A stretch of DNA of 64,000 bases from the NCBI RefSeq assembly GCF_006716645.1, contig NZ_VFPL01000001.1:2480001-2544000 (forward strand). The letters are read 5' to 3'. Position 1 is the stretch's first letter. Each line of letters begins with the position of its first letter. Positions 1,744 through 24,286 of this stretch are shown one piece after another. Both the position numbers and the translations under genes were made by a program. The stretch is from Arcticibacter tournemirensis (GTDB taxonomy: Bacteria > Bacteroidota > Bacteroidia > Sphingobacteriales > Sphingobacteriaceae). The notes beneath the pieces were generated by a model. It worked only from the letters and a program-made list of their open reading frames with translations, was not told the origin of the DNA and searched no databases.

Positions 1744-2313
1744 TCAGTTGTTGTTTAGCCTGTCAAGTGAAACATTCAGCTTAAGAACGTTTACCCTGGA
1801 AGGTCCCAGAAGACCAAAGAGCGGCCCTGAAGTAGCCTGGGCCACTAAAGACGCTACCTGTTCTGGTTTTAAATTGCGGTTTTTTGCTATGCGCGAAACC
1901 TGCATCATGGCACCCTCGACCGATATATTTGGATCCAAGCCGCTTCCTGAAGCAGTTACCATGTCGGTAGGAATATCACTTTTCTTCAAACCAGGGTGGT
2001 ATTTGACTAAAGTGTCGATACGGTTTTTTACTTCCTGAAGATAGTCGGGATTGGTAGGACCTTTATTTGATCCGGCTGAACCGGCGGCATTATAACTCAC
2101 CGCGGAGGGTCTGCCCCAAAAGTATTGCGGAGCAGTGAATGATTGTCCCACCAAAGCATATCCAACGACCTTACCATTCACTGTCACGGTCTCGCCATTG
2201 CCTTTGCCCGGAGAAAAACGGGCTATAAATGCAACGGTCAATGGATAGATGACGCACAGAAGCACCAGCAGCACAAGCGTCATACGGATAGCGGATAAAA
2301 AATAACTCTTCAT
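1744..2313 (-). CDS. kdpC: Potassium-transporting ATPase subunit C
   Basis: KdpC (189 residues, normal length) is the single-span subunit that supports assembly of and ATP binding by the KdpFABC pump in the inner membrane. A hydrophobic segment lies at about residues 8-30. Family motifs are visible: YFWGRPSAVSYNAAGSAGSN, GPTNPDYLQEV and TASGSGLDPNISVEGAMMQV. It starts 17 bases after kdpB and is followed by the porin gene, in the order A-B-C. No unusual residues were noticed. Confidence 0.96.
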   Translation of the reverse strand: MKSYFLSAIRMTLVLLVLLCVIYPLTVAFIARFSPGKGNGETVTVNGKVVGYALVGQSFTAPQYFWGRPSAVSYNAAGSAGSNKGPTNPDYLQEVKNRIDTLVKYHPGLKKSDIPTDMVTASGSGLDPNISVEGAMMQVSRIAKNRNLKPEQVASLVAQATSGPLFGLLGPSRVNVLKLNVSLDRLNNN

Positions 2314-2330
2314 GATATTTGATACTGTCG

Positions 2331-4370
2331 TTAAAAGAATAAAGTAATGGCAAGGTCGATGATCTTAATTCCGATAAAAGGAGCAATAACGCCGCCAATC
2401 CCATATATAAGCAGGTTCCTTCGTAAGAGGGCGCTTGCCCCAATGGGCTTGTAAGCCACACCCTTAAGCGCCAGGGGGATGAGGATGGGAATAATGATAG
2501 CATTGAAAATTACCGCCGATAAGATGGCGCTTTCGGGGCTATGCAGACGCATGATATTTAAACCCTGCAATGCGGGGATCGATGCGATAAACAAGGCCGG
2601 CACGATGGCAAAATACTTGGCAACGTCATTGGCTATTGAAAAGGTGGTAAGCGTTCCGCGGGTAATGAGCAGTTGCTTGCCGATTTCGACGATCTCGATC
2701 AGTTTGGTGGGATCATTATCCAGGTCTACCATATTCCCGGCTTCTTTAGCTGCCTGTGTGCCGCTATTCATAGCCACGCCGACATCTGCCTGTGCCAGGG
2801 CCGGCGCGTCGTTTGTTCCGTCACCCATCATAGCCACCAGTTTGCCGTTAGCCTGTTCCTGCTTGATGTAGTTCATCTTGTCTTCTGGCTTAGCCTCTGC
2901 AATAAAGTCGTCTACACCGGCTTTTTGCGCGATATACTTCGCGGTTAAAGGGTTATCACCGGTCACCATAACCGTTTTTACACCCATTTTGCGCAGCCGT
3001 TCAAAACGTTCGCTGATGCCGGGTTTAATGATATCCTGCAATTCGATCACTCCGAGTATCGCTCCATCTTCTGCAACTACCAGTGGGGTACCGCCATTGG
3101 ATGATATTTCCTTTACTATAGCCTCAGTTTCAGTAGGGAAGGCCTTACCCGCCTTCGCCGAGATGTTCCTTATAGAGTCAAATGCTCCTTTCCGGATCTG
3201 CCTGCCGTCGCTCATATTCACACCGCTTGATCTGGTTTCAGCGGTGAAGCCAACAAAATCAGTATTCTGAAATTCCGGGAGGTTAAATACTCCTACAGGT
3301 ATTTCCGTTTTTGCCAGTTCCACGATCGACTTCCCTTCGGGCGTTTCGTCTGACAGAGATGCCAGGAGGCTGCTTTTAATAAAATGATCGCGACTGGTGC
3401 CAGGTGCAGGATAAAAATTAGTCGCCTTCCGGTTTCCTATGGTGATTGTTCCCGTTTTATCCAGCAGTAAGGTGTCAATATCTCCAGCGGTTTCCACCGC
3501 CTTCCCCGATTTAGTAATTACATTGGCTCTTAACGCCCTGTCCATGCCGGCAATACCGATTGCCGAAAGCAGTCCGCCGATGGTAGTTGGAATAAGACAT
3601 ACAAATAAGGAAATAAGCGCAGCAACAGTAATCGGTGTATTCGCGTAATCGCCAAAGGGCTTTAGCGTTACACATACAATGATAAAGATCAGCGTAAAGC
3701 TGGCCAGCAGGATGGTGAGGGCGATTTCGTTTGGAGTTTTCTGCCTGCTTGCACCTTCAACCAGTGCAATCATCTTATCCAGAAAACTTTCACCCGGTTC
3801 AGTGGTCACGCGAACTTTAATCTTATCAGAAAGGACTTTGGTTCCGCCGGTTACAGACGACTTGTCGCCGCCAGATTCCCTGATTACCGGAGCGGACTCG
3901 CCGGTAATTGCCGATTCGTCCACCGTAGCGATACCTTCAATAATCTCTCCGTCGGTGGCAATAATATCCCCGGTTTCGCAGACGAAGACATCACCCTTGC
4001 GTAAGATATTCGACGACTTGACTTCTATTTTGCCGTTTGCCAGCAACACTTTTGCGGGTGTGTCTTCACGGGTTTTGCGAAGGCTGTTAGCCTGTGCCTT
4101 GCCCCGTGCCTCAGCTAACGCTTCAGCAAAATTGGCAAACAATACAGTTAACAGCAGGATCAGGAAGATCAGGAAATTGTATACAGGAGAGCCCTGGTCG
4201 TCATGACTGAGCGAATAAAAAGTAACATATGCCATAATCAGTGTCCCGATTTCAACGGTAAACATCACAGGGTTACGGAACATGATCCTGGGATCCAGTT
4301 TCAGGATAGATTGCTTCAGTGCCGCACTCACAAGAGCCGGTTCAAAAAGTTTATTGGAAGTTGTTTTCAT
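2331..4370 (-). CDS. kdpB: Potassium-transporting P-type ATPase subunit B
   Basis: KdpB (679 residues) is the ATP-hydrolysing P-type ATPase of the high-affinity potassium pump. The phosphorylation motif [10 protein letters not shown] has its aspartate at residue 304. The actuator motif TGES (in AITGESAPV) and the hinge [19 protein letters not shown] are present. Membrane helices occur at the N terminus, before and after the cytoplasmic loops, and at the C terminus. The start codon lies one base after the kdpA stop, so the two are translationally coupled. Length and motifs fit an intact enzyme. Confidence 0.98.
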
Positions 4371-4371
4371 T

Positions 4372-6090
4372 TTACTTAATCATGGTAAAGTATTCAGCGA
4401 TAGGACCCAGCACCAGTGCAGGGAAATAGGAGAGAGCGTTAAGGACAATAATTATTACCAGTGTCATCGCACTGAACGTCACTGTATCGACACGGAGTGT
4501 TCCCGCAGACTCCGGAATATATTTCTTCTGAGCCAGCAGTCCGGCGATGGCGATTGGTCCGATAATAGGCAGGAAGCGGCCAAAGAACAGTACCACGCCT
4601 GTAGACACATTCCAGAATACATTATTATCACCGAGGCCCTCAAAGCCCGACCCATTGTTCGCGTTCGCGGATGTCATCTCATACAACATCTCAGAGAAGC
4701 CGTGAAAGCCAGGGTTATTTAACCAGTTTGCCGGTTTAACGGCCCATTCGGCATCGGCATAGTTCACATTCACGAAAGCTGCCAGGGCGGTACCAGCCAT
4801 GATCAGGAAGGGACTAAGCAGTGTTACCAGTGCGGCGATCTTGATTTCCCTGGCTTCCACTTTATGCCCGAGAAATTCAGGTGTACGCCCCACCATCAGT
4901 CCGGATATGAAAACCGCTACGATGAGGTAAATAAAGTAATTGAGAATACCAACGCCGCAGCCGCCGAAGAACGAATTGATCATCATTCCAAGCATTTGCC
5001 ACAGCCCGGTAAGCGCCATGGCGCTATCGTGCATGCCATTTACAGAACCGGTAGAAACTATCGTGGTGATGGTGCTCCAATAGGCCGTTGCTGCTGCGCC
5101 AAAACGCACTTCTTTTCCTTCCATCGATCCCGCAGACTGCGTGATTCCCATCTTTGCTATTTCCGGATTCCCGCCAATTTCGCTTGAAAGAGAAAGGGCC
5201 AGCAACAGGAACATCCCCAGGGTCATCACCCCGAAAATCGACCAGGCCAGTTTCTTCCTTCGGATAAAGAAACCAAAGGCAATGATCATAGCCATTGGAA
5301 TAATCATTTGGGAGACCGCCTCCGTCATATTGGTAATATAGTTCGGGTTTTCCAGCGGATGAGCCGAGTTGGCACCAAAGTATCCACCTCCATTAGTGCC
5401 GAGGTGTTTGATGGCGATCAGTTGTGCCGCCGGTCCCCGCGATACATTGACCGTATCACCCTGTAGTGAAATTAACCGATCTTTTCCCGCGTAACTTGCA
5501 GGCGATCCATTGAAAGCCAGGATAAGAGCCACTATCAATGCGAGCGGAAGCAGGAGACGGGTGATCGCTTTGATGAAATACTCCCAAAAGTTACCGAGTG
5601 AGACAGTCGATTTATCACGGAATGCCTTGAAGACCACCACTGCGCTGGCGATGCCGGTCGCCGCACTGGTGAAATGCAGGAACATCAGCACAAAATGCTG
5701 GGTCAGATAACTTACACCTGTTTCGCCGGAATAATGCTGAAGATTACAGTTAACCACAAAGCTGATGATGGTGTTAAATGACAGGTCGGGTGTCATTCCC
5801 GGGTTCCCATCAGGATTCAAAGGAAGTTTGTCCTGATAAATGAGAACAAAGAAACCATATACGAGCCACACAGAGTTGATAGTGAGCAGCGCCTTCATGT
5901 GCTGCTTCCAATTCATTTGCTCTTTAGGATTCACGCCCGATAAGCTGAAGATGCCCCTTTCTAAGGGTTTTAGAAAGTCCGTCCAGACTTTTTCCCCCGC
6001 GAATACTTTCGCCAGGTACTTTCCGAGCGGGATTGCGATTACTAACGTTAAGACGTAGGTACTTATGATTCCAAGTAGTTCCGAATTCAT
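4372..6090 (-). CDS. kdpA: Potassium-transporting ATPase subunit A
   Basis: KdpA (572 residues) is the potassium-binding and channel-like subunit of the Kdp pump, related to the Trk/Ktr channels. The four filter regions of the family can be found: [36 protein letters not shown] and [10 protein letters not shown]. About ten hydrophobic segments are visible. It is preceded at a 4-base interval by a tiny kdpF and followed directly by kdpB. The cytosine in CNLQHYSGE versus the more usual tryptophan-containing form of the first filter is ordinary variation in this phylum as far as can be judged. Confidence 0.97.
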
Positions 6091-6094
6091 ACGA

Positions 6095-6172
6095 TTAAAA
6101 TTTTTCTGGTTTTAGCAATACATATATCATGTAGATAAATACTGCGATTGTGACAATGAAAAGTGTGATCAT
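6095..6172 (-). CDS. kdpF: KdpF, small stabilising subunit of the Kdp pump
   Basis: This 25-codon ORF on the minus strand starts at the ATG at 6172 and ends at TAA 6095-6097. It encodes one hydrophobic helix (MITLFIVTIAVFIYMIYVLL) followed by a short polar tail KPEKF. KdpF in E. coli is a 29-residue single-helix peptide that stabilises KdpABC, and its gene is always directly upstream of kdpA, as here. Size, topology, tail and position all agree. It is too short for ordinary gene finders. Confidence 0.85.
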   Translation of the reverse strand: MITLFIVTIAVFIYMIYVLLKPEKF

Positions 6173-6184
6173 GATAACATTGAA

Positions 6185-6268
6185 TTAGATTTTTTCGAAC
6201 CAATCAACTGATTTAAACATCAGCCGGCAGAAGGCCAGCAAAGCGAGTAATAGTAATATCGTAAGCAT
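6185..6268 (-). CDS. 27-residue single-helix membrane peptide ORF, first in kdp operon
   Basis: An ORF from ATG 6268 to TAA 6185-6187 encodes 27 residues: a leucine-rich helix (MLTILLLLALLAFCRLMF) and an amphipathic tail KSVDWFEKI. It lies 12 bases before kdpF in the same direction and would be the first gene of the operon. It resembles KdpF in size and topology but not in sequence. It may be a second small Kdp subunit, a leader peptide, or a chance ORF. The membrane-helix composition and operon position argue for a real gene; no family was recognised. Confidence 0.5.
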   Translation of the reverse strand: MLTILLLLALLAFCRLMFKSVDWFEKI

Positions 6269-6288
6269 ATCAATTATATTTTCGCAAC

Positions 6289-6306
6289 GCATACCAATTG
6301 GCATGC
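6289..6306. promoter_or_regulatory. Imperfect 18-bp palindrome upstream of kdp operon
   Basis: The sequence GCATACCAATTGGCATGC is a dyad with a single mismatched pair around a central CCAATTGG. It lies about 20 bases before the start of the first small ORF of the kdp operon, in the 5' region of the transcript or over the promoter. It could be an operator or part of an RNA structure. No recognised binding consensus was matched. Confidence 0.3.
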
Positions 6307-6373
6307 CGTGTTATTTAATTGATTGTTAATTGATTGATATTAAGAATATTGTGTGCTTTTGGTAGAAATGATC

Positions 6374-6405
6374 AAAAAAAAAACCCTTTCAAAATGAAAG
6401 GGTTT
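6374..6405 (-). terminator. Intrinsic terminator after the sigma-54 regulator gene
   Basis: On the minus strand a 10-bp perfect stem (AAACCCTTTC and GAAAGGGTTT, 5-base loop) runs straight into a tract of about ten U. It lies 36 bases after the stop of the response regulator and about 110 bases before the first kdp-operon ORF, so it separates the two transcripts and implies that kdp has its own promoter within roughly 6269-6373. Confidence 0.9.
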
Positions 6406-6440
6406 TTATCATATCGGGATGATTGGTTTTTGAGCAGGTA

Positions 6441-7787
6441 CTATTGAATCTTGTATTCCTCCAGTTTCCGGTATAGGGTTGTCAGGCCGATGCCGAGCAG
6501 GCGGGCAGCTTCTGTCTTATTTCCGTGCGTATAATTGAGCACCTTCCGGATGTGCTGTTTTTCCATCATCTGCATATTCAGGGAAGTATGGACGCCTAAA
6601 TCATTCTGAAATTCAAAAGGCAGGAGTGAAGGGTCGATGATATCCTTTTCAGCCAATATCACAACCCTTTCGATCACATTCTTCAATTCCCGTATATTTC
6701 CCTTCCAGGTGTGTTCTTTCAATATCTTCAGAAAAGCTGAATCGAACTGAAGGTTTAGCCGATTTGCTTTCCTTCCATATTCTTTTAGAAAGAATTCTGC
6801 AAGCAATTCAATATCTCCAAGTCGTCCCGAGAGCGAAGGAAGTGAAATAGTAAAGACCGAAAGGCGATAATATAAATCCATTCTGAACTTGCCTTCTTCG
6901 GATTCGACCTGAAGATTTCTGTTCGTAGCTGCGATGATCCTGACATTCACCCTGGTAGTCGACGTATCGCCCAGTTTAATAAAGGTTTGGGTTTCCAGTA
7001 CCCGGAGCAACTTAGCCTGAAGGTCCAGATTCATCTCGCCTATTTCGTCCAGGAAAATCGTTCCGCCGTTAGCTTCCTCAAAAAGTCCTTTTTTGTCTTT
7101 ACCGGCACCTGTAAAGGCGCCCGCTTTATATCCAAACAGTTCACTTTCGAGCAATTCAGAGTTAAATCCACTGCAATTCAGAGCAACGAAGCGCTGGTGC
7201 TTTCTGTTACTTTCGAAATGTATAGCCTGCGCAAAAACCTCTTTGCCCGTCCCGGTCTCGCCAAGCAGCAATACCGTTGTATCGGTCTGCGCAACCTTCC
7301 GCGCCAGCTGAATACTTTCTTTGATTTGAGGGGAGTTTCCAATGATAGCGTCGAAGTTTGGTTTATCGGCATTAACCCTGTCGAGATCAAACGCTCGCTT
7401 TTGTAACAACGCCTTTTCGGAAGCTTTGCAGAGTAAAGGAATTATTTTGTCGTTATCGTCTCCTTTGGTGATGTAATCAAAAGCTCCGTTCTTGATAGAC
7501 TGTACACCGTCAGGGATATTCCCGTATGCTGTCAGATTGATTACTTCAACGTATGGCTTTCTCTTTTTAATCTGTTCAACAAGTTCTACACCATTTGCAT
7601 CCGGAAGTTTAACATCGCTCAATACTACGTGAACGTCCTCCTGCGACAGGATCCGTAAGCCCTCTCTGCCATTGTAGGCCTGTTTCACCTTAAAGCCCTC
7701 CAGGCTGATAATCCTGCTGAGCAGATTATTCAGCTTTTTCTCATCATCAATAATAAGCACACAAACGTTCTCATGATTCTGTTGCAT
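6441..7787 (-). CDS. Sigma-54-dependent response regulator (NtrC type)
   Basis: The 448-residue protein has a receiver domain at residues 8-125 with acidic pocket D14/D15, phosphoacceptor D58, T86 and K108. An AAA+ sigma-54 activator domain follows (about 148-380) with Walker A GETGTGKE at 176-183 and the sigma-54 contact loop GAFTGA at 223-228. A Fis-type helix-turn-helix ends the protein (NKTEAARLLGIGLTTLYRKL). It would bind upstream sites and activate sigma-54 promoters after phosphorylation by a partner kinase. It is directly upstream of, but terminated before, the kdp operon. In enterobacteria kdp is controlled by the OmpR-type KdpE; here this NtrC-type protein is the likely regulator, by position. 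Confidence 0.93.
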   Translation of the reverse strand: MQQNHENVCVLIIDDEKKLNNLLSRIISLEGFKVKQAYNGREGLRILSQEDVHVVLSDVKLPDANGVELVEQIKKRKPYVEVINLTAYGNIPDGVQSIKNGAFDYITKGDDNDKIIPLLCKASEKALLQKRAFDLDRVNADKPNFDAIIGNSPQIKESIQLARKVAQTDTTVLLLGETGTGKEVFAQAIHFESNRKHQRFVALNCSGFNSELLESELFGYKAGAFTGAGKDKKGLFEEANGGTIFLDEIGEMNLDLQAKLLRVLETQTFIKLGDTSTTRVNVRIIAATNRNLQVESEEGKFRMDLYYRLSVFTISLPSLSGRLGDIELLAEFFLKEYGRKANRLNLQFDSAFLKILKEHTWKGNIRELKNVIERVVILAEKDIIDPSLLPFEFQNDLGVHTSLNMQMMEKQHIRKVLNYTHGNKTEAARLLGIGLTTLYRKLEEYKIQ

Positions 7788-7987
7788 GTCAGGCAGGAAT
7801 TTTAGGGCAAATATGCAAATTATCCATCAGGTAAGGAGGGTTCTATTAAATCAACAGCGAACAGATTACCTCTTTCTCTGTAAGCGCAGGCCGTGCCGGT
7901 TTTTATAATTGTTGCATTGTTCTGAACCATTATAATTTGATTGCGTAGAAAAGAAAATTGAACTATAATTACTATATTATAACCCGT

Positions 7988-9316
7988 ATGACCAGATTGT
8001 TTGGACGCGAACTTCTGCACAACTTTTTTTGGATTTTAACTTTAACAATTGTTTTAGCGGGTTGTGTAAGAGTAAATGTGCAAAACAAGGAGCAAAAGGT
8101 ATCCATAACAAAAAAGGAATCCGGATTTGATCTGTATAAGGATAATAAGCCTTTTTTCATTAAAGGGGCTGCCGGATTCACCTATATGGATATATTAGCC
8201 AGGTCTGGTGGAAATGCAATAAGAACATGGGATGCAGATAATATAGCCGCCATTTTAGATAGTGCCCGTAAACATAATCTTGTTGTAATGATAGGCTTAT
8301 ATGTTGTTGATCCCGAAAAGGATCACTCCTTTTATAAGCAGCCTTCAAAAGTGAACAGACAGTTCAGGACGATAAAGAGTATTGTAAATAAATACAAAGA
8401 TCATCCTTCTGTACTCATGTGGTGCGTTGGTAATGAACTTAATTTTCCAAATCCCCTTATTCCCGATAAATTCTATCCAGCATATAATAATATAGTAAAC
8501 ATGATTCACAAGGATGATCCTGATCATCCGGTAACAACTGCTGTGTTAAATTTTAGCAGGCGGATGATCGTAAGTCTGAAACTGCGGTGTAATGTTGATC
8601 TAATATCATTTAACATATTCAATAACATAACTCACTTAAAGGAGGATTTAAAGAAATTTTCGTGGTTTTGGAACGGACCATACATTGTAAGTGAATGGGG
8701 CGTAGATGGTCCCTGGGAGGGCACTGAAAAAACGATCTGGGGTACGCACATTGAAGCTACAAGTACAAAGAAGGCCGAAATTTATTCTACAAGATATTCT
8801 GTGCACATGCCCCTTGATGATGATAGATTTTTAGGATCATTTGTTTTTTACTGGGGGAATAAACAAGAGACAACCCAAAGCTGGTTCAGCCTTTTCGACA
8901 AAAACGGATGTCCTTCGGAAGCCGTTGGAACAATGCAGTATTTATGGACCCAAAAACAACCTCCTCATCGTGCCCCTCAAATTAATTACATGCTTGTTAA
9001 TAATAAAGGGGCAAAAGACAATATATTGCTTTCCACCAACGAACGAGCGTTTGCAGACGTTTCGCTCCTCCAACCCGACACAGCCATTAGTAAGGTGGTA
9101 TGGCAGATTATGCAGGAAGACTGGTTTAAAAAAGGATCAGCCAGCAATACTACTTATTTTAAATCACTCGATGAATTGATTTTATCTTCAAATGGGCTTA
9201 GATTGAACTTTATCGCCCCCCGGCGGGAGGGCCCTTATCGGATCTTCGCTACTATATATGATAAATATGGTAATTTTTCTACTTGTAATACACCTGTTTA
9301 TGTTTTAAGCAAATGA
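7988..9316 (+). CDS. GH2-like TIM-barrel glycoside hydrolase, lipoprotein
   Basis: The ATG at 7988 gives a 442-residue protein; a TTG at 7958 in the same frame is less likely because the signal peptide begins at MTRLFGRELL. The lipobox is LAGC with C26 as the lipidated residue. A TIM barrel like the catalytic domain of GH2 enzymes spans about residues 40-310. The acid/base candidate is E150 in WCVGNELNFP and the nucleophile candidate is E236 in YIVSEWGVDG. A C-terminal beta domain follows (about 330-442). It therefore looks active, probably as a retaining beta-glycosidase or transglycosidase at the periplasmic face. Its stop overlaps the start of the GT2 fusion gene by 4 bases (ATGA), so the two are coupled. 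Substrate is unknown. Confidence 0.8.
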   Translation: MTRLFGRELLHNFFWILTLTIVLAGCVRVNVQNKEQKVSITKKESGFDLYKDNKPFFIKGAAGFTYMDILARSGGNAIRTWDADNIAAILDSARKHNLVVMIGLYVVDPEKDHSFYKQPSKVNRQFRTIKSIVNKYKDHPSVLMWCVGNELNFPNPLIPDKFYPAYNNIVNMIHKDDPDHPVTTAVLNFSRRMIVSLKLRCNVDLISFNIFNNITHLKEDLKKFSWFWNGPYIVSEWGVDGPWEGTEKTIWGTHIEATSTKKAEIYSTRYSVHMPLDDDRFLGSFVFYWGNKQETTQSWFSLFDKNGCPSEAVGTMQYLWTQKQPPHRAPQINYMLVNNKGAKDNILLSTNERAFADVSLLQPDTAISKVVWQIMQEDWFKKGSASNTTYFKSLDELILSSNGLRLNFIAPRREGPYRIFATIYDKYGNFSTCNTPVYVLSK

Positions 9317-12300
9317 AGCAGGAACCAGATCCGGTTAAATCGCCCTCAAAAAGAGAGAAGTTCACTTTACGCCTGATGATCTTTTTAGGTCTCATAAGTA
9401 TGGGTTTTTTCTTCAGGAGCTTGTTCGATCCCTCTGTTATCTCAAATCCTTTCTTGTATTGGATGCTCGCCATCGGCCTGATATTCAATTGTCTGACCGT
9501 ACTTCATGAGTGGTATCATTACTATAGCATTGTAGTCCCGGAAACTCCGCCGAAAACAAAAGTATATACCGTTGATATCTTCACTACATTTTGTGCCGGT
9601 GAGCCTTACGAGATGATCGAGGAAACACTCGTTGCAATTCAAGCTATAAAATACCCTCATAAGACTTATTTATGTGACGAAGCTAATGATCCATATCTGA
9701 TAGATTTATGTAAACGTCTTGGAGTTAATCACGTTACGCGTACAGTAAAGATCAATGCTAAAGCTGGAAACATCAATAATGCATTGAAGCAGTCGGATGG
9801 CGAATTATGTGTGGTTCTGGATCCGGACCATGTACCCTTTCCCGGTTTCCTTGACCCGATAGTATCTCACTTTAATAATCAGGAAGTTGGATTTGTCCAG
9901 ATAGTTCAGGCCTATAAGAATTATAACCATGGTTTAATCGCCAAAGGGGCCGCACAGCAAACTTTTCAGTTTTATGGACCGATGATGATGACCATGAACA
10001 GCTATGGCACAGTACAGGCGATCGGTGCTAACTGCACCTTTCGGAGAACAGCTTTGGAATCTATAGGAGGGCATGCAGCCGGTCTTGCCGAGGATATGCA
10101 CACCGCAATGCAGCTACACGCCAGGGGCTGGAAATCGGTATATGTGCCGGCGGTACTTGCCAGAGGTCTGGTTCCTACCACATTGTCTGCTTATTATAGT
10201 CAGCAGCTCAAATGGTCGCGCGGTGTATTTGAGTTATTGGTCGCTACTTATCCAAAACTATTCAGGAAATTTACCTGGCGGCAAAAGCTTCATTATTTCA
10301 CAATTCCGTTCCACTACCTCTCGGGATTAATCTTCCTGATGAACTTTTTAGTACCCATCATAGCGTTGACATTTAGTATCAGTCCGGTAAATCTGGATCT
10401 CAGGGACTTTTGCTTTATTGGTTTACCGCTGCTTACTGCCATCGTTTTGATCAGGCATTTTGTGCAATGGTGGGTTATGGAAGACGAGGAACGGGGATTT
10501 CATGTTGTTGGAGGGCTTCTTATGATCGGCACATGGTGGATATATATACTTGGCTTGTTCTATACCATAGTAAGGAAAAAGGTGCCTTATAATCCTACTC
10601 CGAAGGACGGTAATGAAGCAAATAACTGGCCGCTAAATATTCCAAACCTTTGTGTAATAGGATTATCTCTTATTGCTATTGTTTACGGTTTATACAATGA
10701 CTATAACCCCTATAATCTTGCCATGGCTGGTTTTGCGCTGATCAATTGCTTTATTATGTTTTTTAACATCATTGCAAGCAGGCAAGTCCAGTTTCGTCAT
10801 ATCAGAAAATATCATCCTTATCTTGACAGGGTTATGTACCAGGTTCACCTTTTAAAAAGCGTATTCTGGGTAATGAGGCGTCGTATCTATAGCGGAATAC
10901 GAAGTACAGCCCTGCTCATTACCATTTTGGCCACCTGCATTATCCTTTATTTCCTGAATACCGGCCATCCGGAACGGGAGTATGGTTTCAAAGGACTTAA
11001 ACCTGCGGACCTGCTTTACGGAATCTATTACCCACAAGGTACAAACGGAATAAGCTCAGTTCGCCGGGTGAAACAGTATCAGGAACAATACCACCACGGA
11101 GCATTCGATATTATATCATTATATATTTCCTGGGGAGACCAGAAGCAATCGTATTTGCCTGAAGCTACAATAGATTCTATCTATAACAACGGCTCAATTC
11201 CGATGATTACATGGGAGCCATGGCAAACGCTGTTTGATCATAATGCAGCCAGCCATGAGAGTGATAAAGAAAACAAGGTGTTTTCACGAATATTACACGG
11301 CGACTATGATCAATACATTCATAAGTTTTCAATGCAGCTTAAAGCGCTGAATCGGCCAGTATACCTAAGGTTTGCACACGAAGCAGATAATCCATTTTAT
11401 CCGTGGTCTGTAACAGGTGGCAACACTGCTTCTGAATTTAAGGATGCATGGAAGTATGTTCATAACTATTTCAGTAAAAATCATATTTATAATGTAATAT
11501 GGGTTTGGAATCCCTGGAAACCGGGTGCGGTTAATGCTTTTTTCCCAGGTAAACAATATGTTGACTGGATTGGTGTAACGAATCTGAACTACGGAAAAAA
11601 AGCAGGAGGGAAGGGTTGGTTTACCATGGAGGATATGTATGCCCAATTTCATAACAGCCCGGTGTTCAGAAGTGGCGTTCCTGTAATGCTGGCAGAAATG
11701 GGTTCTTCCAGGACCGCCGATAGACAAAGTGAGTGGTTCAAAAAAGCCCTTAACTCAATTAAAGCGAAATTTCCGGAGATCAGGGCGCTGGTTCTGTTTA
11801 ATAACAAATCCGATCTTAATATACCCAGCGGCTCCAATTCGGGTAAGATTGACTGGACTATTTCTGACCCAAATGCCCTGAAAGAGCTTCTTCATCGTGA
11901 TGGTGAATCCAATATGCAAGTCTCCGCATTATCATCAGTTCCTGTGCGCAGAAACAGAGTCCGCGATCTAAACAATGCCGGCTTCTTTAGGGGAGTAAAA
12001 GGCGTGAATTACACCAAAGGCACTTCCTGGCACAAGAGTCATAGTCCTTTCAGAAAAAAAGAGCTAATCCATGACTTTAAAGAAATAAAACAGTGTGGCT
12101 TAAATGCCATTATGTATTACGGCCCGTCGATATACGACCGGAATATATTGAGCGCAGCTGGAGAGTTGGATATAAATATCCAGTATGGATTTTGGATATC
12201 TGATCAGTTTGACTTCGTTCAGGATAAAAAGCAGCTGGATAAGCTGTCCAAAGACATATTATCTACAGTATCAGATCTGAAAAGCAACCCAAATATAATT

Positions 12301-13119
12301 TCCTGGAAAATAGGCAATCCTGTATTGCAAAGGCTGGCAGTGCATTATTATAAGCCGATGCTGATCTACCAGCAGGAGGCTTATCTGACCTGGATCGGAA
12401 AGTTGATGCAGGCGATGAAGAAGGAGGATCCTTCCAGAATTATATCCCTTGAGATGGAAGTTAGCCCTGATCTTCCCAGTGTAATTGAAATGACAGAGAG
12501 TTACGTGCCATTTGTTGATTCATATGGGCTTATCCTGCCGGATATTACTACAAATAATAGTGACGATATAGTCAAACAGCTTCATGTTCCTTATTACTTA
12601 AGTAAAGCAAACGTTAATAGTTATCTTGCTCAGGAGCAGGAAACTACCGGTTTCTTTATTTCCAGCTGGCAGGATGAGGAAACATCAGACCGGGCTCTGT
12701 TTAGCGGATTAAAGGATTTGCCTGGTAGAAATAAACCAGAGTTATATAGACTGAAGAATCATTTGCTGGGTTCGGCCATACCTGGTATGCCGCTGATAAA
12801 AATACTTCGGCCCGCCGGAGCTACAGACGTCCGTTCAATGCGGACATATCATGCGGTTGTTTTCATAAACAATAAATGGAAACTGTCCTCCGAACTGCCC
12901 GAATGGAAATATGAATGGCGGCTGGTTAAAAACAATAAATATCGTGAACCTGTTTCGGTGAAGTATTTAGGTGAGGGGAACTTCATAAGAATCAGTATCC
13001 CCGAAAACCCGGAGTTTTACAAACTGCATTTATCAGCATACCGGGACGGGAAAGTAGTAACGGTATCGTCGCCGCTAAATACACCGTTATATGAAATGAT
13101 GAATGAACTGAAGTTTTAA
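9313..13119 (+). CDS. Cellulose-synthase-like GT2 fused to GH26 and a degenerate GH2-like domain
   Basis: A 1268-residue membrane protein in three parts. Residues about 1-560 form a processive GT2 synthase: two N-terminal helices, D122 in CDEAND, DxD at D170/D172, D261 in AED, and QQLKW at 297-301 in place of QxxRW, followed by further membrane helices. After another helix at about 535-552, residues about 565-850 resemble GH26, with E690 in RFAHEADNP and E795 in LAEMGSS as candidate catalytic pair. Residues about 890-1268 resemble the preceding GH2-like lipoprotein including its C-terminal beta domain, but the acid/base position is P1003 (WKIGNP) and the nucleophile position is K1098 (LSKAN), so this part is probably inactive. 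The hydrolase parts would sit outside the membrane. It likely makes and edits an exported polysaccharide, perhaps a beta-glucan; the product is inference. Confidence 0.85.
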   Translation: MKQEPDPVKSPSKREKFTLRLMIFLGLISMGFFFRSLFDPSVISNPFLYWMLAIGLIFNCLTVLHEWYHYYSIVVPETPPKTKVYTVDIFTTFCAGEPYEMIEETLVAIQAIKYPHKTYLCDEANDPYLIDLCKRLGVNHVTRTVKINAKAGNINNALKQSDGELCVVLDPDHVPFPGFLDPIVSHFNNQEVGFVQIVQAYKNYNHGLIAKGAAQQTFQFYGPMMMTMNSYGTVQAIGANCTFRRTALESIGGHAAGLAEDMHTAMQLHARGWKSVYVPAVLARGLVPTTLSAYYSQQLKWSRGVFELLVATYPKLFRKFTWRQKLHYFTIPFHYLSGLIFLMNFLVPIIALTFSISPVNLDLRDFCFIGLPLLTAIVLIRHFVQWWVMEDEERGFHVVGGLLMIGTWWIYILGLFYTIVRKKVPYNPTPKDGNEANNWPLNIPNLCVIGLSLIAIVYGLYNDYNPYNLAMAGFALINCFIMFFNIIASRQVQFRHIRKYHPYLDRVMYQVHLLKSVFWVMRRRIYSGIRSTALLITILATCIILYFLNTGHPEREYGFKGLKPADLLYGIYYPQGTNGISSVRRVKQYQEQYHHGAFDIISLYISWGDQKQSYLPEATIDSIYNNGSIPMITWEPWQTLFDHNAASHESDKENKVFSRILHGDYDQYIHKFSMQLKALNRPVYLRFAHEADNPFYPWSVTGGNTASEFKDAWKYVHNYFSKNHIYNVIWVWNPWKPGAVNAFFPGKQYVDWIGVTNLNYGKKAGGKGWFTMEDMYAQFHNSPVFRSGVPVMLAEMGSSRTADRQSEWFKKALNSIKAKFPEIRALVLFNNKSDLNIPSGSNSGKIDWTISDPNALKELLHRDGESNMQVSALSSVPVRRNRVRDLNNAGFFRGVKGVNYTKGTSWHKSHSPFRKKELIHDFKEIKQCGLNAIMYYGPSIYDRNILSAAGELDINIQYGFWISDQFDFVQDKKQLDKLSKDILSTVSDLKSNPNIISWKIGNPVLQRLAVHYYKPMLIYQQEAYLTWIGKLMQAMKKEDPSRIISLEMEVSPDLPSVIEMTESYVPFVDSYGLILPDITTNNSDDIVKQLHVPYYLSKANVNSYLAQEQETTGFFISSWQDEETSDRALFSGLKDLPGRNKPELYRLKNHLLGSAIPGMPLIKILRPAGATDVRSMRTYHAVVFINNKWKLSSELPEWKYEWRLVKNNKYREPVSVKYLGEGNFIRISIPENPEFYKLHLSAYRDGKVVTVSSPLNTPLYEMMNELKF

Positions 13120-14826
13120 TCAGTTAGATAAAGCTTCAACAAAATTTTCAAACGTTGTTTCGCTGATGCCCCAGTCGGGCGCGGGGATTTTACCCCAAAC
13201 CTTAGGGTTATCCGCCTGATTAAAATAACATACTCCGGCAATGATGTTGCTTTTTCTGATAGTGAAGGCGGCGTCCTTAAGCCAGTTATTCTGGAATGAT
13301 TCAGATCCCTTTACACCAAATTCAGTGATGAAAAGAGGCTTATCCACCAGTCGCATTCTATAGCTTTTACGTTTAAAGATTGTCGAAAACGACTCTTGTA
13401 GCCGGGGATCTGTAATGTTCTTATCCGGAAGCCCGTAGATTGCTATGCTCGTATAATCAACCACGTCGTCTCCAGGCCACCACTCAAGAGACCCTCTGTC
13501 GCCTGCTGGTCCCCACACCCTGCGTATGTTTTTAAGATGAGCTCCGAATCGCATAAAATACCGGTATGCTTTTATATATGTAACAGGGTCCTGGCTTTGC
13601 CATGGATAACGCATTGTAGGTATTTCCATTTCGTGGGCAAATCTTAAAAAAACAGGATGTTTCGCTCTTGAAATAATACGGTATGTTGTTTCGATGATTG
13701 GATCATACATCCCTTTAACCATATCCTTCAAAACATCTCTGCTGGTTGGCCATCTTTTTCCTCTCCATGGTTCGACCGTTATTATCATCGCTCTGCCCCT
13801 TGAATTGATACTGTCGATCTGTCGTTCGAGAGTTCCGTCTTCAATAGCGCCCCAATCAGCAAATAAATGTTCAACCGATACCGCTTTTTCATTGATAAGC
13901 AATTTTCGGGGATCGTATACGCCAATTAACATTCCGCGATCAGTATTTTTCAATCCCGATACCTGGGGGGCTGCTTCTTTTTTTAAAGGCTGTATACTAT
14001 GCCAGTCATCCCCAATAGTTTTAGCCGCAATTTCAAAAAAAGCTCTGTTTTTAGCGTTTGAAGGAATCTTCTCCGAGCCCAAAACAATGATCGGTTTATA
14101 AATCATTCGCATGCGATGGATTTTTCTCCTGATCAATGTTGTAGTATTGTTTACAAGGGGGTAATTATTACATGCCCGTTCTGATTCTCCCAGAAGAGAG
14201 ACACTGATAAGGTCGGCAAACGTATCTCCCGGCCAGTATTCGTCGGCTCCGGGATAACCAGCAGGCGACCATACTATTTTGATGCGGGGAAGAAGCTTTT
14301 TCACCAGTCCGGAAAAATGGCGGAAAGCTTTTATATATTCCACGGGCGATTGATATTGCCAGGGATATTTTTTTACAGGCACCTCCATATCAGGATTAAA
14401 ACTCAATAGTACTTTATCCTGTACTCCGGACAGACCATCGCAAAGCTTTTTGATCTTGTCGTCGTATGCCCCACTAATTACATCCCCTAAAACATTTATC
14501 TGTTGATTTCTTTCGTTATATCCAGCCCAGGTTTCAACAGAGAGGACCGCGGTTTCATGATGTGATAAGGAATCAATCAAGCGATTGTTTTCAACCGTGT
14601 CCTGATCGGTATTCATCCATTGTAAGGAGTAATGGGCGATTGCGGGCATCGTCACATAAGACGAGTCGCTCCCGTGATAGAAGATACCCAGTGCCTGTTG
14701 TTTGGAATCTTTGATGATGATGTCTTTGCTCTCAGTCCTATTCTTAATAAAGACATGTCGTTTCGAATAAAGAACAACACCCATTAAAAAGAATAAAGAT
14801 AAGTACAATGTATATCTTTTGCCCAT
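13120..14826 (-). CDS. Tandem GH26-like protein, one degenerate and one intact half
   Basis: The 568-residue protein has an N-terminal anchor or signal (about residues 5-20) and two repeated GH26-like units, about 44-280 and 296-568. They share obvious blocks: YPWQYQSPVEYIKAFRHF against YPWQSQDPVTYIKAYRYF, and IVWSPAG against RVWGPAG. The second unit keeps both glutamates (E399 in RFAHEMEIP and E502 in ITEFG). In the first unit the equivalents are D146 (SFNPDMEVP) and G250 (IVLGSE), so it is probably non-catalytic and may bind glycan. The gene is convergent with the GT2 fusion, whose stop it abuts directly. GH26 enzymes hydrolyse beta-mannan, mixed-linkage beta-glucan or xylan; which applies cannot be told. 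Confidence 0.82.
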   Translation of the reverse strand: MGKRYTLYLSLFFLMGVVLYSKRHVFIKNRTESKDIIIKDSKQQALGIFYHGSDSSYVTMPAIAHYSLQWMNTDQDTVENNRLIDSLSHHETAVLSVETWAGYNERNQQINVLGDVISGAYDDKIKKLCDGLSGVQDKVLLSFNPDMEVPVKKYPWQYQSPVEYIKAFRHFSGLVKKLLPRIKIVWSPAGYPGADEYWPGDTFADLISVSLLGESERACNNYPLVNNTTTLIRRKIHRMRMIYKPIIVLGSEKIPSNAKNRAFFEIAAKTIGDDWHSIQPLKKEAAPQVSGLKNTDRGMLIGVYDPRKLLINEKAVSVEHLFADWGAIEDGTLERQIDSINSRGRAMIITVEPWRGKRWPTSRDVLKDMVKGMYDPIIETTYRIISRAKHPVFLRFAHEMEIPTMRYPWQSQDPVTYIKAYRYFMRFGAHLKNIRRVWGPAGDRGSLEWWPGDDVVDYTSIAIYGLPDKNITDPRLQESFSTIFKRKSYRMRLVDKPLFITEFGVKGSESFQNNWLKDAAFTIRKSNIIAGVCYFNQADNPKVWGKIPAPDWGISETTFENFVEALSN

Positions 14827-14946: not shown

Positions 14947-16218
14947 TTAAGACATGTTGCCTTGGTTATTAAACAGATAGCCGCTGTATGCCAGTCCGTT
15001 AGCAACGCTGATGAAGTTGTCTCCCGAATTAAGGGGAATATCCGGGAATTTCGATTTAAAAAGATTTCTTATTGCCGGAACCAGAGATGTTCCACCTGTA
15101 AGAAACAGGCAGTCAATGTCTTTTGCATTTATACCGTTTGTTGCCAGGAATTGATCAAGGTAATCGCTGATCCGGGTAAGGTCACTATTTATAATGCCTT
15201 CATATTCCTCTACCGAAATTAGCTCATTGATTTCAATGTTCGATTTAGAGTATGTGAAGTAGGAAGTGTGAAGGCTGGATAACGCAATCTTTGTTTGCTC
15301 AATTGCATGAAACACAGTATAACCCAGATTTTCATCTACCAGGGTGATCAGGTTTTTAAACTTAGGATCATTGTCAGAGAAGTAATAATAATCTTCTATC
15401 TCTCTCCTGATCCGGGCACCGTTAAAAAAATTCATCTTATCCCAGGAGCAAATATTGGAAAACAAGGATTTAGGGACAGTCAGATACTTGCCAGGTGCGA
15501 CTTTATACCGCGTGTTCTTTCCAAAGTAAGGAGTTCCTTTTTCCCACATAAATGCCGAGTCAAAGCTGTCGCCACCGATGTAGATACCGCCGGTGCCCAG
15601 AAATTTGTCCTTTCTGTTTTGCTTTCCCGCGTTTTCGGGATCGAGTACGAGACAGGTAAAATCTGTTGTACCGCCGCCTAAGTCTGCCACCAGCACCGTC
15701 TTTTTCTGGAGAAGCGTTTTCTCGTAAGCAAACGCAGCCCCTATAGGTTCAAACTGGAAGCGCACCTGTTCAAAGCCCGCTATGTCAGCCGCTTTCTCCA
15801 GGCGGCTTTGTGCAAGACTGTCCTTTTGCATATTATCGTCATCAAAGAAAACAGGACGGCCGATAACGGCCTTGCGGCAGTCTTGCCCCGTTATCTTATC
15901 TGCCCGTGACTTCAATTCTCTGAGGATCAATGCCACCAGTGCAGGAGCATTGTATCTCTTTTTACCAATAAGGGTTTCCGTAAAGCTGCTTCTGGAAAGA
16001 ATTTGCTTTACGGACTTGATAAAGCGCCCCCTCATTCCATCGTCGAGGTATGCAGAGATCGCTTCGTTGCCGATAACACAATCTTCACCCCGGCCTTCAG
16101 GGAAATAAATAAGAGAGGGGAGGATGATGGAATCAACGATTTCACCCTTTTCCTCATCAAAAATAGATAATGCAGAGTTTGTGGTTCCGAAATCAATGCC
16201 GTATAAAAACTTTTTCAT
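14947..16218 (-). CDS. Short Hsp70-family protein (YegD-like), nucleotide-binding domain only
   Basis: A 423-residue actin-fold ATPase of the Hsp70 family. Phosphate loop 1 is at GIDFGTTNSALSIF (residues 8-21), phosphate loop 2 at VADLGGGTTDFTCL, and the adenosine motif at LFLTGGTSLVPAIRNLF. There is no room for the substrate-binding and lid domains of DnaK (about 640 residues). Length and motifs match the E. coli YegD type, whose client and role are poorly known. It is a single gene after a 120-base gap from the tandem-GH26 gene in the same direction. A part in envelope polysaccharide assembly is possible from position only. Confidence 0.82.
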   Translation of the reverse strand: MKKFLYGIDFGTTNSALSIFDEEKGEIVDSIILPSLIYFPEGRGEDCVIGNEAISAYLDDGMRGRFIKSVKQILSRSSFTETLIGKKRYNAPALVALILRELKSRADKITGQDCRKAVIGRPVFFDDDNMQKDSLAQSRLEKAADIAGFEQVRFQFEPIGAAFAYEKTLLQKKTVLVADLGGGTTDFTCLVLDPENAGKQNRKDKFLGTGGIYIGGDSFDSAFMWEKGTPYFGKNTRYKVAPGKYLTVPKSLFSNICSWDKMNFFNGARIRREIEDYYYFSDNDPKFKNLITLVDENLGYTVFHAIEQTKIALSSLHTSYFTYSKSNIEINELISVEEYEGIINSDLTRISDYLDQFLATNGINAKDIDCLFLTGGTSLVPAIRNLFKSKFPDIPLNSGDNFISVANGLAYSGYLFNNQGNMS

Positions 16219-22333: not shown

Positions 22334-24286
22334 ATGATTCAATCTAATGGCAGAAAGAGAGTTGTTATTTCCAACGTTTCCCCCCAGATAGAAGGCGGGC
22401 AGTATCCTGCAAAAGCAGTAGAAAATGAAACTATAACCGTTTCGGCTGATGTGTTCAGTGACGGACACGATGAAATAGATGCCCGGGTGTTGTTCAAGCA
22501 TCAGGATGAACAGGAATGGAGCTCAGCGTCCATGGCCTTCACTGTAAATGACCGCTGGGTGGCTGTATTGAAGTTGGAAACCACGGGGTTTTATCAGTTT
22601 AAAGTTCAGGGCTGGGTAGATCATTTCACTACCTGGCAAAAAGGGCTTCAAAAAAAGTACGAAGCGGGACAGGATGTAAACGTAGAACTTCAGATAGGAG
22701 CCGGTCTGATCCGGCAAGCAGCTGAATATGCAGCTGACTCCGATAAGGTTGAATTGTTAAATTACCATGCCGGGTTGCAGACGCAAGGCGACACTGCCTC
22801 AGCAGTATTGACGGCTCTAAGCGGGGAGCTGAGTGCGGTAATGAGAAGGTACAGGGATGAAGATCTTGTAAGCACATATCCTCAAACCATGTTGATAGAG
22901 GTTGAAAGGAAGAAAGCAGCATTTAGTACATGGTATGAACTTTTCCCGCGTTCAGCAGCTCCCGAGCCGGGTAAGCACGGTACCTTTAACGATGTTAAAA
23001 AATTGCTGCCAAGGGTTGCGAAGATGGGCTTCGATGTATTGTATTTTCCTCCTATACATCCGATCGGCGAAAAGAACCGCAAGGGGAAAAACAATACCCT
23101 GACGCCGGGATCGGAAGATCCGGGTTCGCCATGGGCAATAGGCAACCGTACCGGCGGACATAAAGCGATTCATCCTCAGCTGGGCACTCTTGCTGATTTT
23201 AAGAGCCTTGTAAAAGAGGCCAAAAAGCTCAATATTGAGGTTGCAATGGACATCGCATACCAGTGCGCGCCCGATCATCCCTATGTTAAAGAACATCCGC
23301 AATGGTTCAGGTGGCGGCCCGACGGGTCTGTTCAATATGCAGAGAACCCTCCCAAGAAATATGAGGATATTCTTCCGATAAACTTCGAAACGGAGGATTG
23401 GGAGAACCTTTGGAAGGAGCTGAAAAGTTTGGTGGACTACTGGATCGCTCAGGGAGTGACTATCTTCAGGATCGATAATCCGCATACCAAGGCTTTTTCC
23501 TTCTGGGAATGGATGATCCGTGAAGTTAGAAAGACCAATCCCGATGTTATATTTCTGGCAGAAGCCTTTACCCGTCCTCTGCTCATGGAAAGGCTCGCAA
23601 AGGCTGGTTTTAACCAGTCGTATACGTATTTCACCTGGAGGAATACGAAATATGAGCTGGAAGAGTATATGAGGGAGCTGACCAAAACCGATATGCGATA
23701 TATATTCCGTCCGAACTTTTGGCCAAACACTCCCGATATCCTTTCTCCTTTTCTGAGCTGGGGAGGGGAGAATGCTCATATCCTCCGGTTGGTACTGGCG
23801 GCTACACTTTCTTCGAGTTATGGGATTTACGGGCCGGTGTATGAGTTTTGCGTCAATACGCCCCATCCGGGAAAGGAAGAGTATACCGATAATGAGAAAT
23901 ATGAAATTAAGCACTGGGACTGGGATCAGTACACCCGCATAAAGGAGATAATCGCCAGAGTAAATATTATACGGAAAAACAACCCCGCACTGCACACTAC
24001 CTGGAACCTTGAATTTGCAGAAAGTAGCAGTGATCAAATTATTTGTTACGGGAAGGCCGATCCCGAATCGAAGAATAACCTCATTGTAGTGGTTAACCTC
24101 GATCCTTATAATACTCATGGTGCTCACGTGAAAATACCCCTGTGGCAACTGGGTATCAGGCCCGGCGTTCCATATACAGTGCGCGACTTGTTAAGCGGAA
24201 GCAGGTACCGCTGGCAGGATGAGTGGAATTATGTTCAGCTTAATCCTTACGAAATGCCTGCGCATATTTTTAGAGTTGAACAATAA
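22334..24286 (+). CDS. glgE: Alpha-1,4-glucan:maltose-1-phosphate maltosyltransferase
   Basis: GlgE (650 residues, normal length) transfers maltose from maltose-1-phosphate to the end of an alpha-1,4-glucan. An N-terminal domain is followed by a GH13 barrel. The nucleophile is D381 (FRIDNPHTK), the acid/base E410 (FLAEAFTRP) and the third acidic residue D468 (NTPDIL); their spacing of 29 and 87 agrees with that in Streptomyces GlgE. It opens a three-gene operon with the trehalose synthase/maltokinase and the branching enzyme, which supplies its substrate and branches its product. The translation start at 22334 is the first ATG before the conserved N-terminal region. Confidence 0.95.
   Translation: MIQSNGRKRVVISNVSPQIEGGQYPAKAVENETITVSADVFSDGHDEIDARVLFKHQDEQEWSSASMAFTVNDRWVAVLKLETTGFYQFKVQGWVDHFTTWQKGLQKKYEAGQDVNVELQIGAGLIRQAAEYAADSDKVELLNYHAGLQTQGDTASAVLTALSGELSAVMRRYRDEDLVSTYPQTMLIEVERKKAAFSTWYELFPRSAAPEPGKHGTFNDVKKLLPRVAKMGFDVLYFPPIHPIGEKNRKGKNNTLTPGSEDPGSPWAIGNRTGGHKAIHPQLGTLADFKSLVKEAKKLNIEVAMDIAYQCAPDHPYVKEHPQWFRWRPDGSVQYAENPPKKYEDILPINFETEDWENLWKELKSLVDYWIAQGVTIFRIDNPHTKAFSFWEWMIREVRKTNPDVIFLAEAFTRPLLMERLAKAGFNQSYTYFTWRNTKYELEEYMRELTKTDMRYIFRPNFWPNTPDILSPFLSWGGENAHILRLVLAATLSSSYGIYGPVYEFCVNTPHPGKEEYTDNEKYEIKHWDWDQYTRIKEIIARVNIIRKNNPALHTTWNLEFAESSSDQIICYGKADPESKNNLIVVVNLDPYNTHGAHVKIPLWQLGIRPGVPYTVRDLLSGSRYRWQDEWNYVQLNPYEMPAHIFRVEQ

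Follow-up and report, generated by a model that had tools for sequence, protein, structure and literature searches.

A conserved GH158 and GT2-GH26 fusion gene pair in Bacteroidota as a candidate beta-glucan synthesis-and-editing complex

Introduction

What is made by a glycosyltransferase of family GT2 that carries a glycoside hydrolase in the same polypeptide and adjoins the gene of another? This question is raised by a locus spanning positions 7988-14826 of the window, by which we mean the whole stretch of 64,000 nucleotides of Arcticibacter tournemirensis DNA that was analyzed. Most work on Bacteroidota has dealt with the breakdown of beta-glucans from plants and algae, and if the genes described here make beta-glucan, the GH26 and GH158 genes in Bacteroidota genomes would have to be read differently.

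Organization of the locus

A sequence-only reading of the window had placed a synthase fusion and a convergent tandem-GH26 gene in this locus, beside a further hydrolase gene. All three open reading frames were verified at these positions, and the domain names were changed in part. The features are as follows:

7988..9316, + strand: gene of a GH158 protein, with a lipobox LAGC at codons 8054-8065
8435-8437, + strand: codon of the GH158 acid/base Glu, of the Asn and acid/base Glu motif, mapped from E137 of BuGH158 via alignment
8693-8695, + strand: codon of the GH158 nucleophile Glu, mapped from E220 of BuGH158 via alignment
9313..13119, + strand: gene of the triple fusion (1268 aa), composed of GT2, GH26 and a dead GH158 domain
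9313..10965, + strand: BcsA-like GT2 synthase part, residues 1-551, from motifs and a predicted model
10909..10965, + strand: last membrane helix, residues 533-551, preceded by an Arg/Lys-rich stretch
11011..11898, + strand: fused GH26 domain (residues 567-862), with the lichenase CtLic26A as its nearest solved relative
11938..13116, + strand: C-terminal GH158-like domain of the fusion, with Pro at the acid/base position
13120..14826, - strand: gene of a tandem GH26 protein, an optional third part, with a hydrophobic N-terminal anchor
13123..13938, - strand: second GH26 repeat of the tandem protein, from homologue alignment
13957..14706, - strand: first GH26 repeat of the tandem protein, from homologue alignment

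The ATG at 7988 sits within a longer frame that begins with TTG at 7958. The stop of the GH158 gene (9316) overlaps the next ATG (9313) by 4 bases, and the convergent third frame terminates at 13120, immediately after the end of the fusion gene at 13119.

The separate GH158 protein

The protein encoded at 7988-9316 had been described as a GH2-like lipoprotein. Pfam indeed gave a match to the GH2 TIM barrel (1.2e-6; 28.3 bits, cut-off 21 bits), but GH158 chains in the PDB matched over nearly the whole length (9oro, 1.3e-63; 6pal, 6.6e-48), and the GH2 identity was dropped because these matches are far stronger (1.3e-63 versus 1.2e-6). These data assign the protein to GH158, an endo-beta-1,3-glucanase family; of the earlier description, the lipobox and the coupling of the gene stand. 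The Asn, the acid/base Glu and the nucleophile Glu are kept in 79/79 homologues encoded in operons of this kind. Among 80 such operonic GH158s, sorted automatically with 8 rows then moved and 4 assigned by eye, 55 have a lipobox-like Cys, 23 have a membrane anchor without a lipobox and 2 were unreadable.

A GH158 tree was built from a chosen subset comprising the window, 17 of the 79 loci described below, 7 of 11 further GH158-bearing loci of a phylum sample and 14 of 29 places without GT2. In this tree, the 14 GH158s without GT2 are separated from a single clade of 22 operonic GH158s (100/100), and the GH158s adjoining three GT2 relatives (L026-L028) fall with the non-operonic ones, not with the 22. 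The genome of the window itself contains two other GH158 genes, one beside a SusD gene (L138) and the other beside TonB-receptor, SusD and GH3 genes (L139).

The GT2 synthase part

The N-terminal part of the fusion matched the cellulose synthase model TIGR03030 at 4.9e-49, yet its 167 bits did not reach the cut-off of 699.1 bits. It contains the motifs DEAND, DPDH and AEDMH, QQLKW (10201-10215) and a gating-loop-like VPYNPTPK. The D, DxD, ED signature was found in 80/80 proteins, whereas the QxxRW signature was not, its Arg being replaced by Lys in 80/80; therefore, BcsA does not allow donor and linkage to be deduced. In a Foldseek search with a predicted GT2-GH26 model, BcsA was the best match (1.5e-25) and the mannosyltransferase PcManGT scored far lower (1.2e-12). 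By our reading of a predicted model (pTM 0.66), with helix limits chosen by us, the GT2 part has seven membrane helices. The last of these (533-551) is predicted from the model to place GH26 in the periplasm; residues 490-532 ahead of it contain 10 Lys and Arg and 1 Asp or Glu.

In a GT2 tree, which included the rhizobial GT2s L116 and L117 (product unknown) and neither a proven CrdS nor RiGT2, the GT2 of the fusion was separate from both the BcsA and BgsA clades, indicating that the locus is not an ordinary cellulose operon. Locus L112, which we take to be bgsBA from its HlyD and glycosyltransferase layout, encodes the GT2 of the BgsA clade, which has no hydrolase domain. A Pfam scan found neither PilZ nor GH17 in the fusion, and searches of the genome from which the window comes detected no homologue of BcsB or OpgG/MdoG. 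Membership in the BcsA group was thus rejected on signature, score, PilZ and BcsB, in the BgsA group on clade and in the GT2-GH17 group on the absent GH17. The earlier statements that the locus has no bcsB partner and does not match known cellulose operons agree with these results.

The fused GH26 and GH158-like domains

The domain following the last membrane helix matched Pfam GH26 at 4.3e-11. Its nearest solved relative is CtLic26A, at 2e-23 versus 3.8e-8 for the next GH26 in one comparison and 4.2e-25 versus 5.4e-9 in another, where the E-values differ by some 16 orders of magnitude, and CtLic26A is nearest by fold too. The acid/base E690 (codon 11380-11382) is kept in 78/80 proteins and the nucleophile E795 (codon 11695-11697) in 75/80, being missing in 5/80; the domain is degenerate in L026-L028. 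Fold, Glu pair and nearest relative together place the fused domain in the lichenase branch of GH26.

The C-terminal domain is a GH158 homologue according to hhalign (99.3%, E 5.1e-20). Its predicted model had 6pal as the best Foldseek match and a VIA Z of 27.0 to GH158(Pro) versus 22.2 for the best non-GH158 chain, and its GH2 identity was dropped on this homology and fold. Pro replaces the acid/base Glu in the window (codon 12319-12321), the acid/base Glu occurs in 0/80 proteins and Glu at the nucleophile position in 18/80. As the GH158 fold is kept and the catalytic acid/base is lost, the domain is a pseudoenzyme that probably holds the glucan chain as a clamp. The GT2-GH26-GH2-like fusion proposed earlier is therefore confirmed in its first two domains, which lie in one protein, and changed in its third, a dead GH158 homologue.

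Conservation of the gene pair

The best 80 of 393 relatives, ranked by similarity to the full fusion, yielded 79 loci, all of which encode triple fusions, partly because they were chosen in this way. In 79/79 fetched loci a GH158 gene, which was not in the query, lies directly upstream of the fusion on the same strand, and the 4-bp overlap occurs at 41/81 junctions, the window included. Such recurrence indicates that the arrangement is not due to chance. Within a phylum sample, GH158 was found in 33/296 genomes (E<=1e-20) and adjoins GT2 in 12/14 GT2 loci, with gene orientation changed in three, and the unit occurs in six families. This GT2 was not seen at the 14 opened of 29 other GH158 places in the sample. 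No GH158 was seen in the 20 kb retrieved for two GT2 relatives, L029 and L030; the GT2 of L029 is unfused and adjoins an independent GH26 gene. The GH158 gene and the fusion gene are a conserved unit, as the claim that synthase and hydrolases belong together had anticipated.

The surroundings vary. Besides GH158, no annotated gene family recurs in more than 16/79 loci; SusD-like genes lie within 10 kb in 15/79 and TonB-receptor-like genes in 12/79. The kdp operon and sigma-54 regulator near the locus are not conserved among relatives, and ten other window proteins (P0004-P0013) had no match above 35% over 120 aa in the 79 loci. An osmotic role suggested by the adjoining kdp operon was dropped because this neighbourhood is not conserved.

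The tandem GH26 protein

The convergent gene encodes a protein without a Pfam match, whose second half matches CtLic26A at 2.7e-8 and whose homologues align to both halves, in either order. The catalytic Glu pair of the second repeat is kept in 16/16 homologues, while the nucleophile Glu of the first repeat is absent in 16/16. The name tandem-GH26 protein thus holds for two repeats of the family, the first of them without a nucleophile. Such a gene was found near the fusion in 16/79 loci, some with short flanks; L073, in which the protein is split over two frames, is excluded from the 16. Whether the fusion occurs without the other two genes, as the sequence-only reading had asked, was thereby answered differently for each, since GH158 accompanies it in 79/79 loci and the tandem GH26 gene in only 16/79. 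In the phylum sample the tandem protein (E<=1e-100) was found in 5/296 genomes, all 5 among the 11 pair-bearing ones (Fisher 2.5e-8, with related genomes treated as independent). A 333-aa GH26 match (4.7e-37) in G130, a genome that does not have the pair, was not counted here, since it spans just one of the repeats. In L024 and L025, which are without the fused GH26, the tandem-GH26 gene comes next in the operon. The tandem GH26 protein is therefore predicted to be an optional helper that can substitute for the GH26 domain of the fusion.

Proposed pathway and alternative explanations

We consider it fairly likely that the GH158 and fusion genes encode an inner-membrane complex for the synthesis and editing of a beta-glucan. 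The GT2 part would polymerize a sugar on the cytoplasmic side, most likely glucose from UDP-glucose, and, judging from motifs, fold and topology, guide the chain across the membrane by a channel of its own, as BcsA does. The extra membrane helix would bring GH26, as part of one polypeptide, to the periplasmic end, and there this domain, with a catalytic pair kept in nearly all members, could cut or transglycosylate the emerging chain while the C-terminal dead GH158 domain holds it. The membrane-tethered separate GH158 would cleave or rearrange the chain in a second way, acting on beta-1,3 bonds as its family suggests, and trimmed chains or oligosaccharides would be released into the periplasm. 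Membrane tethering on the periplasmic side is predicted for GH26 and GH158 as well as for the tandem protein. Since one hydrolase is lichenase-like and the other belongs to a beta-1,3-glucanase family, the most economical product would be a glucan containing beta-1,3 linkages, possibly of the mixed beta-1,3;1,4 type. The earlier proposal that the locus makes and trims an exported glycan is borne out in the pairing of synthase and hydrolase; as to export, the hydrolases look tethered to the periplasmic side of the membrane, and no family besides GH158 recurs above 16/79.

Alternatively, the product could be a secreted exopolysaccharide, a long beta-glucan leaving by an unlinked export route, with the hydrolases merely clearing stalled periplasmic chains. 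Exopolysaccharide operons commonly include a hydrolase gene, such as pgaB or, in E. coli, the bcsZ gene of the bcs operon, and BcsZ and PgaB act in the periplasm during export; the best match of the GT2 fold to BcsA also fits. However, no linked exporter is conserved among the annotated gene families, no BcsB was found in the genome, and for clean-up alone two or three tethered hydrolases, including a fused one, would seem excessive, so that we regard this account as rather unlikely. That the GT2 makes mannan or another polymer which GH26 trims is improbable. GH26 enzymes are described as mostly annotated mannanases, the rest being xylanases (PMC7157769), PcManGT is among the Foldseek matches, although well under BcsA, and the QxxRW motif is altered; against this stand the lead of the lichenase over the next solved GH26 (4.2e-25 versus 5.4e-9) and the invariant GH158 partner, whose family has as its solved members one laminarinase and one protein to which laminari- and mixed-linkage oligosaccharides were added by soaking. 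A catabolic beta-glucan island that captured a GT2 gene by chance would explain why the other GH158 genes of this genome adjoin SusD or TonB-receptor, SusD and GH3 genes and why some relatives have SusD-like or TonB-receptor-like genes within 10 kb. It is nevertheless very improbable, given that GH158 and GT2 are paired in 79/79 loci and that no other gene family is common to all of these, that the sampled operonic GH158s form a separate clade and that 23/80 look inner-membrane anchored.

Some Bacteroidota thus probably produce a beta-glucan that is trimmed at the inner membrane, with degrading-type enzymes apparently recruited to a synthase, which would offer a compact system for beta-glucans of set length. 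More speculatively, and with much less confidence than in the complex itself, GH26 and GH158 might act as transglycosylases with the dead GH158 as clamp, releasing defined short or cyclic mixed beta-1,3;1,4-glucans into the periplasm as a Bacteroidota counterpart of osmoregulated periplasmic glucans.

Comparison with known systems

The proposed complex would be a further mode of joining a glucan synthase to an editing enzyme, beside GT2-GH17 and Cgs, with a pseudoenzyme in the same chain. Among the matches listed in open-licence literature (titles and starts of abstracts), none announced a GT2-GH26 or GT2-GH158 protein. In the "orphan" cyclic beta-1,3-glucan synthases of Pseudomonas (NdvB), as described in PMC10237404, GH17 precedes a BcsA-like GT2 and there is no PilZ. 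The fusion likewise joins a BcsA-like GT2 without PilZ to a predicted periplasmic hydrolase at the channel exit in one membrane protein, but here GT2 comes first, followed after an additional membrane helix by GH26 and the dead GH158; the fusion also has a separate GH158 gene next to it, and GH17 is absent. Cgs, the cyclic beta-1,2-glucan synthase, is similarly a single polypeptide that polymerizes and processes a glucan, by a GT84 domain with a modified GT2 fold; it is reported to differ in its GH144-like processing domain, its product and its tyrosine-linked intermediate (PMC10901819). BcsA shares the GT2 core D/DxD/ED, a gating-loop-like (V)PYxPTPK and the membrane fold, whereas the fusion has QQLKW for QxxRW, no PilZ, fused and coupled hydrolases and a genome without BcsB. 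BgsA of S. meliloti and RiGT2 are described as GT2 synthases for beta-1,3;1,4-glucan, the product most compatible with the GH26/GH158 pair; RiGT2 differs in carrying PilZ (PMC10374906).

BuGH158, GH158(Pro) and CtLic26A are alike in fold and catalytic pair to the enzymes discussed here. BuGH158 belongs to a utilization locus (PMC7157763), and a second known GH26 lichenase, which also cuts xyloglucan, belongs to a cellulosome (PMC7157769); as described there, neither is tied to a synthase, in contrast to the present locus. GT2 and GH26 genes also share an operon in an alphaproteobacterium, S. meliloti, with the order galE-GT2-DUF995-GH26-DUF995 (L113). This operon differs in being unfused, in its motif QEFQW and in lacking an annotated GH158 across the 7 kb retrieved; its GH26 is 28% identical, and its GT2 forms a sister branch in the GT2 tree (92/86) with a branch length of 3.44.

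Architecture and conservation of the GH158-fusion unit

The three ORFs that the sequence-only reading had claimed at 7988-14826 were borne out at those coordinates. They and other genes in the window are as follows:

1744-6090, minus strand: potassium-pump genes kdpA, kdpB and kdpC
6441-7787, minus strand: sigma-54-type response regulator
7988-9316, plus strand: first ORF, a GH158 protein with a lipobox
9313-13119, plus strand: second ORF (the fusion), 1268 residues made up of a GT2 synthase, a GH26 domain and one more domain, overlapping the first ORF by 4 bases
13120-14826, minus strand: third ORF, with two GH26-like repeats, convergent with and abutting the second
14947-16218, minus strand: Hsp70-like protein (nearest model chaperone PRK11678, 220.6 of 331 bits, below cut-off)
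22334-24286, plus strand: protein upstream of the next gene
24304-27645, plus strand: trehalose synthase fused to maltokinase

Neither GH26-like repeat of the third ORF was detected by the Pfam scan. The kdp genes and the sigma-54-type regulator are divergent from the GH158 gene and have no counterpart near the fusion in 79 related loci. The protein at 22334-24286, which we take to be alpha-amylase-like, had no NCBIfam match at 1e-20. The genome is 5.66 Mb in size and is placed in Bacteroidota by its relatives; in the GT2 tree, the nearest entry to the GT2 of the window was that of Pedobacter ginsengisoli (84% over the core).

A broader search yielded 393 relatives; the best 80 of these, representing 79 loci from Pedobacter, Chitinophaga, Larkinella, Dyadobacter, Runella, Arenibacter, Robertkochia, Balneolaceae and others, were fetched. 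In 79/79 loci the gene immediately upstream of the fusion, on the same strand, is that of GH158, with junction offsets from -155 to +55 bases and a 4-base overlap at 41/81 junctions, a count that takes in the window and a double locus. These two are the only gene families common to all 79 loci. After them, the most widespread are the tandem GH26 gene (16 loci) and, at scattered positions, SusD-like and TonB-receptor-like families (15 and 12 loci, respectively), the last two assigned by typing one member per family among partly annotated neighbour families. In L049 (Chitinophaga japonensis), two GH158-fusion units stand in tandem.

Among 296 genomes sampled from the phylum, 13 carry this GT2 (E<=1e-60), at 14 loci in all, comprising 7 triple fusions, 2 GT2 with a dead GH158 and no GH26, 3 GT2 with a degenerate GH26 and 2 GT2 alone. 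GH158 adjoins the GT2 in 12 of these loci (11 genomes), and GH158 of any kind occurs in 33/296 genomes (E<=1e-20). Overall, this is a genuine locus, both conserved and coherent.

The synthase and its fused domains

The GT2 part is alignable to bacterial cellulose synthases, and BcsA was the first Foldseek match of the GT2 + GH26 model (mean pLDDT 87.7, pTM 0.66); it scored 167 bits vs the BcsA cut-off of 699.1 bits. It carries QQLKW at the position of the QxxRW motif, and all checked GT2 positions, including the Lys of QQLKW, are invariant in the 80 fusions from the 79 loci. No PilZ domain was found in the fusion by the Pfam scan. The model, together with a charge count over stretches whose limits were set by the analyst, suggests seven membrane helices, and the Arg/Lys-rich stretch preceding the last of these suggests that the GH26 domain would be periplasmic.

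CtLic26A, a lichenase, was nearest to the fused GH26 both by sequence (4.2e-25 vs 5.4e-9 for the next GH26) and by fold (Foldseek). The acid/base is kept in 78/80 fusions and the nucleophile in 75/80. Both profile comparison (99.3%, E 5.1e-20) and fold (Z 27.0 to GH158(Pro) vs 22.2 for the best other chain) identify the C-terminal domain, modelled at a mean pLDDT of 91.2, as a GH158. A Glu is present at its acid/base position in 0/80 and at its nucleophile position in 18/80, while a neighbouring Asn persists in 72/80 and a Trp in 75/80; retention of these two residues is compatible with what might be a binding domain.

The operonic GH158 and the tandem GH26 protein

The separate GH158 retains N, E and E in 79/79 homologues, truncated copies being left out of this count. 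A tree of 39 GH158s places 22 operonic members in a single clade (100/100). The GH158s of L026-L028, which adjoin a GT2 in another orientation, group outside this clade next to 14 others from loci where no such GT2 was seen; two of the 14 come from the genome of the window itself, where one neighbours a SusD gene and the other lies with TonB-receptor, SusD and GH3 genes. At 5444-11854 of another fetched locus, L147, the neighbours of a GH158 are a sugar-family MFS transporter and a 1153-aa protein with no Pfam match at 1e-5; the setting in L149 looks similar.

By automatic sorting, then partly reassigned by eye, 55 of 80 operonic GH158 N-termini have a lipobox-like Cys, 23 a membrane anchor without a lipobox, and 2 are unreadable. 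The editing enzymes would thus be expected to face the periplasm, with the anchored ones held at the inner membrane.

The tandem GH26 gene was found near the fusion in 16/79 loci, some with short flanks. The Glu pair of the second repeat is retained in 16/16 proteins; the first repeat is without the nucleophile in 16/16 and has a Glu at the acid/base position in 12/16. A hydrophobic stretch lies within the first 60 residues in 16/17 tandem proteins (the start of the L044 protein is uncertain). At E<=1e-100, the protein occurs in 5/296 genomes, all among the 11 bearing the GT2-GH158 pair (Fisher 2.5e-8, with related genomes treated as independent), and was not found in the other 6 at this threshold; in 2 of the 5 it is encoded away from the pair.

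Proposed working and product

We rate the locus as a putative GT2 glucan synthase whose editing enzymes are in part covalently attached to it and in part coupled through the operon. In the proposed inner-membrane complex, the chain would exit the GT2 channel toward the fused GH26, the fused dead GH158 would hold the emerging chain, and the active GH158, docked at the complex, would also meet it. The layout has a precedent in the Pseudomonas GT2-GH17 synthase, for which cutting and cyclisation of a beta-1,3-glucan have been proposed (PMC10237404), and Cgs is another synthase with built-in processing (PMC10901819). No announcement of the present combination was found in the literature, judged by titles and abstract starts among the matches listed.

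BuGH158, an endo-beta-1,3-glucanase, strongly prefers laminarin and has low activity towards mixed-linkage glucan (PMC7157763). CtLic26A is a lichenase, as is one other GH26, which also cuts xyloglucan (PMC7157769). A glucan with beta-1,3 bonds, possibly of mixed-linkage form, would be most compatible with GH26 plus GH158. Since no conserved linked exporter family was found among the partly annotated neighbour families of the 79 loci, and no BcsB or OpgG homologue in the window's own genome, a periplasmic product seems no less likely than a secreted one.

Interchangeable parts and relatives

The synthases of L024 and L025 lack a GH26 domain; in both loci the tandem GH26 gene comes next in the operon. 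Behind the unfused GT2 relative of L029 stands a separate GH26 gene, whose product shares 31% identity with the fused domain. A GT2 of S. meliloti, sister to this clade on a long branch, shares one operon with a GH26 gene and has the motif QEFQW. That operon, at 1772-6722 of the fetched plasmid locus L113, comprises the unfused GT2 and GH26, galE and two DUF995 genes.
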